26,230 bases of DNA from positions 1 to 26,230 of IMG/VR virus record IMGVR_UViG_3300031851_000151, one strand, 5' to 3'. The stretch is from a virus. Under the pieces are notes generated by a model. That model was given only the letters and a program-made list of their open reading frames with translations. It was not told the origin of the DNA and ran no database searches. Shown one piece after another: positions 847-25,825 of this stretch (its first letter is position 1; the number at the start of each line of letters is the position of its first letter). Made by a program: the position numbers and the translations under genes.

Positions 847-875
847 ATTATACCTTAGAATTGTTTTTTTGTCAA
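847..875 (-). promoter_or_regulatory. Consensus sigma70-type promoter
   Basis: On the minus strand TTGACA (875-870) and TATAAT (852-847) are both perfect consensus hexamers separated by 17 bases. The -35 overlaps the TGA stop of the upstream fusion gene (872-874). The start point would be near 840, just at the base of the structured leader RNA. It probably uses the host housekeeping sigma factor, so this operon is likely early. Confidence 0.85.
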
Positions 876-1642
876 CTGTCTCTACGTTCAATGTCTTCTT
901 CAATGCATTGATTACCGTATTGAACTTCCAGAATATGGCAGAACTGCGAGGATTGATTACTGCCTTTGTGCCATTCTTTCTTTTGAATTGTAGTAGTTTG
1001 GTGTTCTGTTAGTCTACATTTTTCTTCTATGTCAGACGATACATTTATTGTATCGACTACTACCTCACCTTTTAAACAATACCAATGCTCTGTTCTATGT
1101 TCATGTCTTTGCATTGATAAACTTTTGCCTGGTTCAATTATTAATTCTTTTATTTTATACCCTGGACGATCCTGTAACACTCTATACCAACCCCATGCTC
1201 TTTGTACTTTTGGTTGTTTCCAGTTTTCTAAAATTCTACTAGATGAATTAAGTTTATTATTGCCACCTACGCCAAATGCAAATTGTACTTTGTCTTTGTA
1301 GGTTTGCATTTCTGGTATATTGTCTTTATCTCTATCACCGCCATTAGCAAATATTATTTGTTGTCCGTTGCCAACAGTAGACATCAGTTTGAATATTGCT
1401 CCGCAGGCTGTATCATCACTGTCATCAAAACTTACTATTCCATCTACCATGGATAAGTTTTCTATAATTGCTTTTCTTTCTTTGAACGGCAAGAATGCTT
1501 GACCTTTTTTGCGAGATAACCATTGGTCACTGTTGATACCAACATACAACTCGTCTCCAAGTTGACGTGCTGATTTAAAATAACTGATATGTCCTGAATG
1601 TAGAGGATCAAATCCTCCGGTTACTAATACAATTTTCTTCAT
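872..1642 (-). CDS. Nucleotidyltransferase fused to mannose-6-phosphate isomerase-like cupin
   Basis: Two domains are visible in 256 aa. Residues 1-140 resemble the RfaE/TagD cytidylyltransferase-like family: the nucleotide-binding signature GGFDPLHSGH is at 9-18, and a SSSRI motif is near 133-137, where the family has its ISSTxIR-like segment. Residues 148-256 match the type II phosphomannose isomerase cupin found at the C-terminus of ManC: WGWYRVL, GYKIKELIIEPG, then metal-binding His at 180, 182 and 186 (QRHEHRTEHW), H225, and ILEVQYG near the end. It probably acts in sugar-nucleotide or surface-glycan metabolism. An AAAGG ribosome site lies 6 bases before the ATG. Each domain is recognisable; the substrate is not, and the fusion is unusual to me. 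Confidence 0.8.
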   Translation of the reverse strand: MKKIVLVTGGFDPLHSGHISYFKSARQLGDELYVGINSDQWLSRKKGQAFLPFKERKAIIENLSMVDGIVSFDDSDDTACGAIFKLMSTVGNGQQIIFANGGDRDKDNIPEMQTYKDKVQFAFGVGGNNKLNSSSRILENWKQPKVQRAWGWYRVLQDRPGYKIKELIIEPGKSLSMQRHEHRTEHWYCLKGEVVVDTINVSSDIEEKCRLTEHQTTTIQKKEWHKGSNQSSQFCHILEVQYGNQCIEEDIERRDS

Positions 1643-1661: not shown

Positions 1662-2159
1662 TTATCCTACGTGTAAGCCAAACCATTTCTTAGTATCGTT
1701 GAGATACTTTTCCCAACGAGTATCAGCAAGTGAATACTCGAAGTTTTGAGTTTCGTGATTCAGTCCTATTCTGACTGCTCCGTTTTTCTCGTGAAAATTT
1801 TTAGCCATCAACGTAAGAGGTGATAAAGTTATTACTCTTTTAATCTGTTTAGAATCTCTAGCCATTTTTAATAAATGATCTATTATTGTCTTGCCTGCTC
1901 CTTTTGTATGACTCCATACTGTATATGCAATAGCAATACTTCCTGCAGGATCAGAAAACTTCTTAAGTTCATCAACACTTTTTGGAACAAACTTACAATG
2001 TGCTATACAAACCACAGATGCATATTCGCCTTTGTCGTCTACTAGAGCATAAATTTCTCTGCCTCTAGTTTCAGAATTTCTAAATGCTAATGACAATTCT
2101 GGTCTAACTGGGTCTTGTTCTATATCTATTACATCTATTTTTTGGAATTTAAATGCCAT
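1662..2159 (-). CDS. GNAT-like acetyltransferase-fold protein
   Basis: This 165-aa protein shows features of the GNAT fold: a strand reading SIAIAYTVWSHTKGAGKTII near residues 73-92 resembles the acetyl-CoA pyrophosphate-binding region (strand, then Gly-rich turn, then helix), followed by VITLSPLTLMAKNFHEKNGA, which resembles the late GNAT segment where a helix leads to the Asn-Gly-Ala turn. The substrate cannot be told. Its ATG overlaps the sufB stop by one base (TAATG), so it is probably translated by coupling to sufB. The pairing with sufB may mean shared timing rather than a shared pathway. Confidence 0.5.
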   Translation of the reverse strand: MAFKFQKIDVIDIEQDPVRPELSLAFRNSETRGREIYALVDDKGEYASVVCIAHCKFVPKSVDELKKFSDPAGSIAIAYTVWSHTKGAGKTIIDHLLKMARDSKQIKRVITLSPLTLMAKNFHEKNGAVRIGLNHETQNFEYSLADTRWEKYLNDTKKWFGLHVG

Positions 2160-3607
2160 TATCCTACAGATCCTTCCATGCTGACTTCCAAAAGTTTGTT
2201 GGCTTCAACGGCAAACTCCATAGGAAGTTTTTGAAAAACTTCTTTGCAGAAACCTGATACCAATAAATTTGTTGCATCTTCTTCAGTTAATCCTCTCTGT
2301 CTACAATAAAATAATTGTTCTTCATCTATCTTAGATGTTGTTGCTTCGTGATTACAGTTACTAGTATTACTGTTGTTTTCTATATAAGGTATTGTGTTTG
2401 CTGAACATTCATTACCCATCATTAATGAATCACAAGCAGTAAAATTCTTTGCCTTGTCGGCAGACTTTAATACTTTGACCAATCCTCTGTATGTGTTTGA
2501 TGACTTGCCTGCAGAAATACCTTTTGAGATTATTGTACTTCTAGTATTTTTACCTATGTGTATCATTTTAGTACCTGTATCTGCTTGTTGATGACCGTTT
2601 GTAAGAGCAACTGAATAAAATTCTCCTATCGAGTTATCACCTTTTAGTATACAAGAAGGATACTTCCATGTCAATCTACTTCCTGTCTCAAATTGTGTCC
2701 AAGTTATGCGAGAACTATGACCTTTACATAGTCCTCTTTTGGTAACAAAGTTATAAATTCCGCCTTTGCCTGTGACAGGATCACCTGGATACCAGTTTTG
2801 TATTGTTGAATATTTTATTTCTGCATTGTCCATGGCAATTAATTCTACATTGGCGGCGTGTAATTGATTTTCATCTCTCATTGGTGCTGTGCAACCTTCA
2901 AGATAACTTACACTACTGCCTTCATCTGCAACTATAAGTGTTCTTTCGAACTGTCCTGTGTTTGATGCATTTATTCTAAAGTATGTAGATAGTTCCATAG
3001 GACATTTTGTATTTTTTGGAATATAAACAAATGTGCCATCTGAGAATACTGCTGAATTAAGTGTGGCAAAGTAATTGTCTGAACGAGGTATTACACTACC
3101 TAAATACTTTTTAACTAATTCAGGGTGATTGTTTACTGCTTCTGAGAACGAACAAAATATTATACCTTTTTTTGCAAGTTCTCCGTGAAATGTAGTGGCA
3201 ACAGACACAGAATCAAATACTGCATCAACGGCCACTCCTGCTAGTTTGGCACGTTCTCCTAATGGTATTCCTAATCGTTCAAAATCTTTTTTAATCTCTG
3301 GATCCACTTCGTCATAACTTGCAGGACCTTTCTTTGGAGCAGAATAATAACTGATAGATTGATAATCTATGGGATTGATATCAAGTGTTGACCAATCGGG
3401 TTCTACCATTTTTGTCCAACGTCTGTATGACTTTAGTCTATAATCAAGCAACCATTGAGGTTCTTTCTTAATTTTTGATAATCTTGTTACAATTTCTTCG
3501 TTGATACCTGGTTCGAACGTTTCGCTTTCGACATTCGTGACAAACCCTGCACTATATTCTTGCTCTAATCTTTGCTCTACTTTTTTTCTATCTTTAATTT
3601 CTGGCAT
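2159..3607 (-). CDS. sufB: Fe-S cluster assembly scaffold SufB
   Basis: This full-length SufB (482 aa; E. coli about 495) is the scaffold subunit of the SufBCD Fe-S cluster assembly complex in the cytoplasm. The C-terminal half is nearly textbook: [91 protein letters not shown] and a terminal EGSVG. By hand alignment to E. coli SufB from memory, C239 matches C254, C392 matches C405, and H420-E421 match H433-E434, the residues implicated in cluster assembly, so it looks functional. No sufC, sufD, sufS or sufE is present in the window, so it would have to work with host partners. A TTAAATA motif ends 6 bases before the ATG. Confidence 0.95.
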
Positions 3608-7549: not shown

Positions 7550-7885
7550 GTGCTACTATAAGTTTTCGTAGCAGATTATAGAGTGCCCCACTTCTGTTGC
7601 AAGGCAGGGGCCGCCCCTGAAATTGTTGGTTATTACGCCGCTAATCTCAATTCAGACATACCAACTGTTAAGTCAGCAAATCCTAATGCTTTTTTGTTTG
7701 CATTTATAAACTTGGCCGTTACCTCGTTCCAACTGGATAAACTCCACATCTCTTTACACGCCCGTCGATCCTAGTTCACCCCCGGAAGGGATTACATAAG
7801 CCACCAAGTAATAAATTGGTGGAGGTGGTCGGTACTGCCCCGACGTCCGCAACGTTTATTTCAAATGCTTCAACGTCTACAAATA
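7550..7885 (-). ncRNA. ssrA: Circularly permuted (two-piece, alphaproteobacterial-type) tmRNA
   Basis: Read on the minus strand, the acceptor piece comes first: CGGACG, a 5-bp T-arm (7844-7840 with 7832-7828) and CACCTCC-A-CCA ending at 7817 (CCA encoded). A 33-base intervening sequence follows (7816-7784). The coding piece then begins at 7783 with GGGGGTGAACTAGGATCGAC. The two acceptor strands pair over 7 bp with G-U at the third pair, the alanine identity element. GTTTAT near 7740 can pair with ATAAAC near 7856 (helix P2). The tag frame starts at GCA (7701), has 22 codons, ends SELRLAA and is closed by TAA TAA (7635-7630) followed by CC, as in E. coli. A GC-rich hairpin (7605-7619) follows. 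The T-loop lacks the usual TTCRA. The piece ends at 7550/7885 are estimates. It rescues stalled ribosomes and tags peptides for proteolysis. Confidence 0.9.
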
Positions 7886-7929
7886 TATTTAAGCACAAGG
7901 TTGACAATTTGTCAACCATATCGTAATAT
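7886..7929. promoter_or_regulatory. Palindromic divergent promoter (tmRNA leftward, small-gene operon rightward)
   Basis: A 9-bp inverted repeat with one central base, GGTTGACAATTTGTCAACC (7899-7917), places a TTGACA hexamer on each strand. On the plus strand TTGACA (7901-7906), a 17-base spacer and TAATAT (7924-7929) drive the gene at 7935. On the minus strand TTGACA (7915-7910), an 18-base spacer and TAAATA (7891-7886) drive the tmRNA. The two -35 boxes share the palindrome, so polymerases would compete; the palindrome could also be an operator. Confidence 0.75.
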
Positions 7930-7934
7930 ATTGA

Positions 7935-8210
7935 ATGCAAACAGAAAAAAGTAAAAGAAAACTTTCAATAAAAATCACAGACTTGAAAGAATTTGAGGAG
8001 ATAAAGGAGGGTTTATCCTTCAAGAAGATAATTAAAAGCGTTCAAGGTGGACTTCCAAAAGGAACTACTGAGATCAGTGTTGAATACACTAACCGAAAAG
8101 GACAGAAAATTGCTAGAATGCAGAAGGTCCCAATTGGTAGAAAAGTGAGACAGGCTGAACTCCAAGAGAAAAAGAGAGCGGCCTTAAAAGCGAAATTAGT
8201 TAGACGTTAA
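7935..8210 (+). CDS. Basic hypothetical protein, 91 aa
   Basis: The family is not recognised. The protein is strongly basic at both ends (MQTEKSKRKLSIKITDLKEF; KKRAALKAKLVRR) with a central LPKGTTEISVEYTNRKGQ that looks like beta strands, which could suit RNA or DNA binding. The ATG lies only 5 bases after the -10 box, so the predicted transcript would begin at or next to the start codon and be leaderless; no upstream ribosome site exists. It heads a rightward run of four small genes. An 8-base tandem repeat (GACGTTAA, 8203-8218) spans the stop. Confidence 0.7.
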   Translation: MQTEKSKRKLSIKITDLKEFEEIKEGLSFKKIIKSVQGGLPKGTTEISVEYTNRKGQKIARMQKVPIGRKVRQAELQEKKRAALKAKLVRR

Positions 8211-8271
8211 GACGTTAAGAGAGTATAAGTTTGTGGCATTAAAGGTTAGAAAGTTGATAGTAAGATTAAGA

Positions 8272-8388
8272 ATGTGGTATGCAGATGTGCGTGGACATCA
8301 CGGACACCGATGGGACTACGAGCCAGGCGAGAACTATCTTGGCATGAAAAAAAGCAATTACTGGAAGAGAAATCACAAAGACCAATGA
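8272..8388 (+). CDS. Very small hypothetical protein, 38 aa
   Basis: The reading frame gives MWYADVRGHHGHRWDYEPGE followed by NYLGMKKSNYWKRNHKDQ: an aromatic, His-rich composition unlike random translation. Its TGA overlaps the ATG of the next gene (ATGA), supporting real translation. An in-frame GTG at 8233 could extend it by 13 residues; neither start has a strong ribosome site. Another frame over the same bases gives an Arg/Cys-rich sequence that looks like a shadow. Function unknown. Confidence 0.45.
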   Translation: MWYADVRGHHGHRWDYEPGENYLGMKKSNYWKRNHKDQ

Positions 8389-24665: not shown

Positions 24666-24848
24666 ATGCCAACTATTACAGACATATATTCTAGAGAAGA
24701 CATAGAGAACAAAGATAAAAAAATACAAGAACTTGAAAGAGATATTGGCAATTTACAATTTCAAGTATCTGAATATCAGCAGATAGTCAAAGAACTATCA
24801 GATAAACTTACTGATTACTCTCGTACTAAATCACAGAACAGTGAATGA
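24666..24848 (+). CDS. Small coiled-coil protein, 60 aa
   Basis: The ORF starts MPTITDIYSREDIENKDKKI and continues as one charged heptad-like helix (QELERDIGNLQFQVSEYQQI, then VKELSDKLTDYS). No family is recognised. The predicted transcript starts about 3 bases before the ATG and no ribosome site is present. Its 3' end overlaps the end of the leftward amidinotransferase-like gene by 34 bases, an uncommon tail-to-tail overlap that would also make the two mRNAs complementary there. Confidence 0.6.
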   Translation: MPTITDIYSREDIENKDKKIQELERDIGNLQFQVSEYQQIVKELSDKLTDYSRTKSQNSE

Positions 24849-25825
24849 TATCCATACGCAAATGTTTGTGTGTGCAGTAGGTTAGATTCTATTATTTCAA
24901 ATCCGTGTGCGTTTAATAATTTACATAGTTCAGGTTGATCACTGTTGACCATCTTGTGTCTTTCATCTATGTTAAGCACTTGTAGATTAACATACTTTGA
25001 TCCTAGAGGATGTTTGTATGCACCTTTGTCTTTTAAAGTTTCTACCCATATCTTTTTATAGTCTTTAAATATTTTTGGTATTGCTTCTCCAGACAATCTA
25101 TCAGCATTACACAACAAAGTATTTTCATCCAGGGGCATCATATTATTACACAGTGATTCGTAATGATAAAATCTACCTGTTATTTCTACTTTGTATTCGT
25201 CACCTAGAACTTGTTGCAACCATTCAGCACCCAGTCTATTAGACCTAGCACTTGTGAAATACAATATAGTTTTGCCAAATTTTAATATGTCTGTTCCAAC
25301 AAACAATGGTTCGTTGTTTCTTGCGTAAAGTTTATTATCCTTCTGTGCTATAGATCCTGCTTCTAATTTTGATCTAGGAGCAACAACGTATGCTCCACCA
25401 TTCTCTTGAATGTATTTTTTTATTGGTCCATACACTTGTGATTCATAATGTTTAGATCTATAAGGGTGTGGACATTCAATTACTTTGTTACCGATAGTTA
25501 CTAGTGTTTCTCTCATATTGAGAGTGTTCATTCCTGTACACACCCAGTCGTGTGTTGCAACTGCTGTCTTCCAGTTGGCTCTAGTAGGTCTAACTATCTC
25601 TATATCAAAATCTAATTTTAATCTATCAATCAATAGATATATGTTTTCGTTTACACTTTCAATAACATCTTCTGGTATCTTATAAGGAAAGTGTCCGCCT
25701 TGGTCTCCAGGATACTTCAACCAAGTTTTAAACATAGGATCTTCGATAGGCCAATTGGCACCATCTGGTCTACCAACAACTATTGACTTGAGTTTACCAT
25801 ATTCACTGTTAGATTGTATATTCAT
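24815..25825 (-). CDS. Glycine amidinotransferase-like protein (pentein fold)
   Basis: The 336-aa protein matches the arginine:glycine amidinotransferase family: EYGKLKSIVVGRPDGANWPI (8-27), MNTLNMRETLVTIGNKVIEC with HPYRSKHYE following, a FVGTDILKFG segment, LQQVLGDEYKVEITGRFYHYES, and the C-terminal TQTFAYGYHSLFCDLVRE. In human AGAT the end reads GGGFHC with the Cys as nucleophile; here His327 is followed by Ser328, and the nearest Cys is 331. So the catalytic residue may be altered, or my alignment is one step off. If active it would transfer amidino groups (guanidinoacetate or similar). An ATTAAATA late-type motif ends 8 bases before the ATG. Confidence 0.8.
   Translation of the reverse strand: MNIQSNSEYGKLKSIVVGRPDGANWPIEDPMFKTWLKYPGDQGGHFPYKIPEDVIESVNENIYLLIDRLKLDFDIEIVRPTRANWKTAVATHDWVCTGMNTLNMRETLVTIGNKVIECPHPYRSKHYESQVYGPIKKYIQENGGAYVVAPRSKLEAGSIAQKDNKLYARNNEPLFVGTDILKFGKTILYFTSARSNRLGAEWLQQVLGDEYKVEITGRFYHYESLCNNMMPLDENTLLCNADRLSGEAIPKIFKDYKKIWVETLKDKGAYKHPLGSKYVNLQVLNIDERHKMVNSDQPELCKLLNAHGFEIIESNLLHTQTFAYGYHSLFCDLVRE

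Follow-up and report, generated by a model that had tools for sequence, protein, structure and literature searches.

A two-piece tmRNA of T4-like phages with a long tag whose inner module is under selection as a peptide

We report a circularly permuted, two-piece tmRNA gene on the minus strand (approximately positions 7880 to 7582) of a 26.2-kb viral record with T4-like genes, IMG/VR record IMGVR_UViG_3300031851_000151 (from here: the window, meaning the whole analysed stretch of 26,230 nt). The tmRNA is real and functional-looking, and its tag is a new variant within an already known group. Phage two-piece tmRNAs themselves have been published; what is new here is a long phage tag with a selected inner module, a subject on which our literature search found no paper. 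We consider it quite probable that the gene specifies a working, phage-owned two-piece tmRNA that would use host SmpB and append a phage-specific tag probably readable by ClpXP, with the inner module perhaps serving a second recognition.

Two-piece tmRNAs in marine phages were previously reported with Melnitz and Mosig (PMC9004378). Of the 133 unique phage tmRNA structures surveyed there, 53 had the two-piece form, and marine or aquatic phages supplied 50 of these; the roles proposed for phage tmRNA were to keep the seized machinery running or to degrade host proteins (PMC9004378). A curated database lists 79 phage tmRNAs, the commonest tag length being 10 residues (PMC11915505). HTVC008M also carries a two-piece tmRNA (alpha_tmRNA 83.8 bits), and Mosig was matched at 67.6 bits. 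The window resembles Melnitz, Mosig and HTVC008M as a marine T4-like phage with an alphaproteobacterial-type permuted tmRNA. Melnitz and Mosig possess a glutamine riboswitch, a common but not defining element (PMC9004378), whereas neither this nor any other further Rfam family exceeded its gathering score in the window.

Identity and anatomy of the tmRNA gene

The Rfam covariance model alpha_tmRNA (RF01849) matched positions 7930-7582 of the minus strand with 110.6 bits (E 1e-29), and tmRNA_permuted (RF04321) matched 7880-7669 (-) with 107.5 bits (E 2e-20), both far above the gathering cut-offs of 50 and 47 bits, respectively. ARAGORN called a permuted tmRNA at 7912-7542 (-) with the predicted tag ANKKALGFADLTVGMSELRLAA followed by two stops. 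The original prediction of a permuted tmRNA on a phage, made from the letters of the DNA, is borne out by these matches. Because alpha_tmRNA is the model retained within its Rfam clan for this gene, the supported class is an alphaproteobacterial-type, phage-borne permuted tmRNA. The blastn search with the gene against annotated phages gave 0 matches, i.e. no close isolated relative. The extent first proposed, 7550-7885, needs correction: the coding piece does not reach as far as 7550, and the useful extent runs from approximately 7915, at the promoter, to 7582.

All elements of the RNA lie on the minus strand. The acceptor piece (7817..7880), the 3′ half of the tRNA-like domain, comes first and ends in the encoded CCA (7819-7817); its 5′ end was placed from the promoter spacing and the tmRNA_permuted match. 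It holds one strand of the inter-piece helix H2, TAAACGTT (7851..7858, partner 7762-7755), the T arm GTCGG-GGCAGTA-CCGAC (7828..7844) and the 3′ strand of the acceptor stem, CACCTCC (7821..7827), which includes U70 and is followed by A73 and CCA. A 33-nt intervening sequence (7784..7816), probably removed in processing, separates the CCA from the 5′ acceptor strand GGGGGTG (7777..7783), which would carry the mature 5′ end of the coding piece (RNase P site). The two acceptor strands form 7 of 7 pairs, 7783-7777 with 7827-7821, G3-U70 included.

The coding piece, the mRNA-like part (7582..7783), is delimited by Rfam and ARAGORN. It contains the second H2 strand GGCGTGTA (7755..7762; like the T arm, supported by pairing over the relatives), the tag reading frame of 22 codons called by ARAGORN (7636..7701, resume codon GCA at 7701-7699), two stop codons, TAATAA (7630..7635), and a 3′ hairpin around the conserved loop GCAACAGAA (7583..7611). 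The order of the pieces, the 7-bp stem with G3-U70, the encoded CCA, the intervening stretch and the 22-codon frame ending in LAA with two stops had all been anticipated correctly. Two supposed oddities turned out to be typical of the family. The T-loop GGCAGUA, taken for non-canonical, matches the Rfam alpha consensus GGCgGUA and is normal for the alphaproteobacterial form (relatives have even canonical UUCGANU T-loops at the same place), and the D-side, thought to be unusual (GGATCGAC), agrees as GGAUCGAC with the alpha consensus AGGAUCGAC.

With the alphaproteobacterial two-piece tmRNA (RF01849; Caulobacter, SAR11) the window gene shares the permutation, the CCA-encoded acceptor piece, a GGCRGUA T-loop, the AGGAUCGAC D side, the AUAAAUGCAAAC resume region and the GCAACAGAA hairpin loop. 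It differs in its tag, which has 22 residues and a conserved inner module where the SAR11 genes that were read have 9 residues, and in a far lower score.

Conservation of structure, promoter and locus

Relatives were gathered in three ways: by NrdA, by an acceptor/T-loop DNA pattern and by the tag pattern. Across 20 aligned relatives, the 19 named pairs of the tRNA-like domain were paired in 94.2% of cases, with a covariation score of 0.387 vs 0.125 (sd 0.017) in 500 shuffles; with the pairing partners slid, the score dropped to 0.02-0.08. Kinship alone can beat shuffles without any structure, but the slid controls retain kinship and yet collapse. The pairing of the tRNA-like domain is not chance, because covariation exceeds the shuffles and collapses on sliding.

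In the same 20 relatives, covariation extended over the acceptor stem (100% paired, compensatory change at 2 pairs, 5 and 6), the T stem (100% paired, two-sided changes at 4 of 5 pairs) and H2 (84% of cells paired, two-sided changes at 4 pairs). Among 40 relatives, acceptor pair 5 was G-C, U-A or C-G and pair 6 was U-A or G-C, always paired, while the alanine identity pair G3-U70 was invariant in all 40. The encoded CCA was likewise invariant in the aligned relatives, and their tag stop was TAA or TAG. The 3′ hairpin was assessed sequence by sequence, as the MAFFT register made a formal count unreliable: its stem sequence varies, a helix of 5-8 bp persists in nearly all relatives, and the loop [C/G]AACAGAA is conserved. 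Both the acceptor strands and the tag frame, on which the original prediction depended, are conserved among the relatives.

The gene is directly preceded by a conserved sigma-70-type promoter, consisting of the -35 hexamer TTGACA (7910..7915, -), which 39 of 40 relatives also have immediately upstream, a 17-nt spacer and the -10 hexamer TTAAAT (7887..7892, -), which reads TATAAT in many relatives. In a palindrome, GGTTGACAAATTGTCAACC (7899..7917), the divergent -35 boxes of the tmRNA and of a gene for a 91-aa basic protein (7935..8210, +) overlap each other, and the TTGACA..GTCAA symmetry was found in many relatives. This divergent neighbour belongs to a family of small basic proteins of 67-91 aa with a conserved LPxGRKKK-GR end, whose gene diverges from the tmRNA out of a shared intergenic region in 33 of 44 relatives; among the remaining 11, the upstream sequence of 4 is too short for a judgement. 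The 91-aa protein gave no match over threshold in Pfam or PHROG. Its assignment to a known RNA-binding fold was rejected, with no PDB sequence or fold match and a weak model (pLDDT 70.5, pTM 0.42). A second conserved short ORF (8233-8388, +) follows in 30 of 44 relatives; it encodes approximately 51-55 aa with the core RMxYADxRGHHGKxWDYEPG.

In the window, T4-like genes (NrdA/NrdB, exonuclease, PAAR) surround the tmRNA, and viral relatives have it at the same locus, between NrdA-NrdB-PAAR-hyp405 and hyp98-(SNase)-ParB-like-HNH-like genes; one relative (L003) has the locus at the end of its contig, where the tmRNA copy is cut short. Relative to its neighbours, the unit of tmRNA and small protein has the same orientation in 23 of 44 relatives, counting the window with 22 others, and the opposite one in 21 (L006, L007, L011, L304, L325 and 16 others). 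Site-specific inversion of the cassette was considered, but despite both orientations being common there are no convincing flanking inverted repeats, and we claim no switch.

A gene for ribosomal protein bL12 lies 0.3-0.8 kb from the tmRNA in 6 relatives (L237, L245, L356, L358, L378 and L388), and this proximity points to a translation-related locus. There is none beside the tmRNA in the window. The phage ribosomal proteins bS21 and bL12 likewise let phages supplement or substitute parts of the translation apparatus with their own genes, but these are proteins and the tmRNA is an RNA; the paper describing them makes no mention of tmRNA (PMC6375957).

The tag peptide and selection on it

Approximately 45 relatives at the one conserved locus have tags of 22-25 residues in which the inner module KALGFADLTV is followed by a linker that varies and an RLAA end that does not. 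All 45 follow the pattern xxxxA[L/F]GFAD[L/F]T[V/L], mostly with K or R before the A, and continue with a linker of approximately 5-8 residues and RLAA. The tag scan itself demands A-x-G-F-A-D, so that these residues are invariant in part because the search required them; V13 and RLAA were left unconstrained. The ARAGORN calls, which are independent of the tag pattern, included no intermediate tags.

In a set of relatives whose recruitment made no use of the tag pattern, codons 5-13 had a pN of 0.000 and a pS of 0.315, codons 19-22 a pN of 0.000 and a pS of 0.192, and the linker a pN/pS of 0.56. Inclusion of two length variants gave the core a pN of 0.014 vs a pS of 0.406. Shifted, out-of-frame readings lose this pattern. 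Changes in the module are almost all synonymous, and therefore the peptide and not only the RNA is selected: the inner module and RLAA are under selection as peptide, beyond RNA alone. A search for a phage protein that the tag core might mimic returned just unrelated matches in 6.6 million translated residues.

The selection on the tag bears on the idea of a decoy that titrates SmpB or blocks host trans-translation. Phages in which no SmpB was found would bring in a competitor for the host protein, and inhibition of tmRNA by a phage molecule that comprises only the tRNA-like domain was described for mycobacteriophage DS6A (PMC4131195). To a decoy, however, a tag is superfluous, yet the tag reading frame with its resume region and stops is conserved, the peptide is under selection, and G3-U70 and CCA are invariant; we regard a decoy as very improbable.

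A plainer alternative is an ordinary extra tmRNA copy, which would add rescue capacity while host mRNA decays and whose tag would be a plain ClpXP degron, its module being kept for solubility, unfolding or speed of ClpXP uptake without a dedicated partner. The invariant RLAA end fits this, as does the frequency of phage tmRNAs with ordinary short tags in the same collections (HTVC008M, Mosig and many others). Nine consecutive residues fixed beside a free linker (pN/pS 0.00 vs 0.56) would be unexpected for such generic roles, and we rate both the extra copy and this account of the module as a serious possibility that falls short of even chances.

In contrast to the long tag of the window, those of Mosig (GEDNFALAA) and HTVC008M (ANFNEYALAA) are both short. 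The original prediction had also held that the tag may differ from that of the host, and the comparison with sampled Pelagibacteraceae agrees. Here, alpha_tmRNA was over the cut-off in 80 of 99 genomes, and all 33 SAR11 tmRNAs that were read out (L186, L188, L189 and L192-L221) carry 9-residue tags, e.g. ANDKFALAA, ANESYALAA or ANEQFALAA. The 22-residue tag of the window does not conform to this nine-residue type.

Sister phages have a second long-tag type, A(N/K)AFKPEVTVPxSxFADxELVAA, which is also long (23 aa) and also encoded by a permuted tmRNA near NrdA/NrdB and hyp98, but with an unrelated inner sequence, a VAA end and no hyp67/hyp91 neighbour detected. In this group, synonymous change is too scarce to judge selection. 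Its carriers include L015-L018, L021, L026, L235 and L277, and ARAGORN often miscalls the tag as ADAELVAA.

Origin, host and proposed function

The prediction that the gene is of alphaproteobacterial type holds, alpha_tmRNA being the best model; that it was taken from SAR11 little changed does not. A passenger gene captured from a host not long ago would agree with the best fit of the alphaproteobacterial model, but dozens of diverged relatives have the gene at the same conserved locus, and with alpha_tmRNA the phage sequences score 59-130 bits vs 178-247 bits for SAR11 genes. The phage tag pattern was not found in 385 alphaproteobacterial genomes, and purifying selection also speaks against a passenger. 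A weak tmRNA tree places the phage sequences apart from SAR11, but as non-SAR11 alphaproteobacteria fall inside SAR11 it is a hint only. These comparisons give no support to a recent capture from SAR11, and the passenger reading, to which we give hardly any credence, appears refuted.

The NrdA of the window is closest to that of Pelagibacter phage Mosig (68.5% over 98%), with cyanophages at approximately 72% over 90%; NrdB and a 404-aa protein are likewise nearest to pelagimyophages and cyanophages. As NrdA is nearly as close to cyanophages as to Mosig, we only infer SAR11 as the host. SspB was not found in 41 SAR11 genomes but was found in the controls E. coli and Caulobacter. If SAR11 is the host, its short tags and the failure to find SspB sharpen the contrast with the phage tag. 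Neither SmpB nor SspB was found in 23 phage records, many of them fragments, so that their absence is not proof. ClpP occurred in 1 of the phage records searched: a ClpP protease gene (251 bits) is present in L395 (contig of L384, G163 1136-1681), a relative with a long-tag tmRNA.

The G3-U70 pair directs alanylation, and CCA maturation, dependence on SmpB and the action of LAA-type ends as ClpX degrons are established features of tmRNA biology. The working phage-owned tmRNA that we favour builds on the observed RNA architecture, covariation, promoter, conserved locus and tag selection. Expression would start from its own sigma-70-type promoter, and host tRNA-processing enzymes would cut the transcript into the acceptor and coding pieces, held together by base pairs. 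After alanine charging through G3-U70, the tmRNA with host SmpB would enter stalled host ribosomes, where translation would switch to the phage frame and add the charged alanine plus ANKKALGFADLTVGMSELRLAA. The tagged fragments would probably be destroyed, because the terminal RLAA should still be readable by host ClpXP. KALGFADLTV probably serves a second recognition that differs from that of the short host tag, and its reader would be an adaptor or protease of either the host or the phage. This step is drawn by analogy with the E. coli tag, which has an SspB-binding part, and taken alone it has about even odds.

A further possibility, which we hold to be rather unlikely, is a private phage tagging code in which a dedicated partner would read KALGFADLTV...RLAA and the products would be handled unlike host-tagged ones; such a partner could be a phage protein, for instance the small basic one encoded divergently next to the tmRNA, or some host factor that is not SspB. 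The hypothesis in the original prediction that the tag could divert the peptides bearing it or promote translation of the phage gains some substance because the inner module is under selection. A selected inner module, in a clade that otherwise freely changes its tmRNA helices, offers a concrete handle on the purpose of phage tmRNA.

The window also contains a SufB-like Fe-S assembly gene (2159-3607, -; SUFBD_core 275 bits) in this T4-like phage context. Among annotated phages, Microcystis phage MaAM05 (64%) comes nearest, together with a faecal phage that is unannotated (61%), and a SufB scan of bacterial genomes gave best matches scattered across phyla, with no host signal. At 872-1642 (-), a cytidylyltransferase-like domain is fused to a mannose-6-phosphate isomerase C-terminal/cupin domain, and the gene at 24815-25825 (-) encodes an amidinotransferase-like protein with approximately 25% identity to Campylobacter phage and cyanophage proteins.
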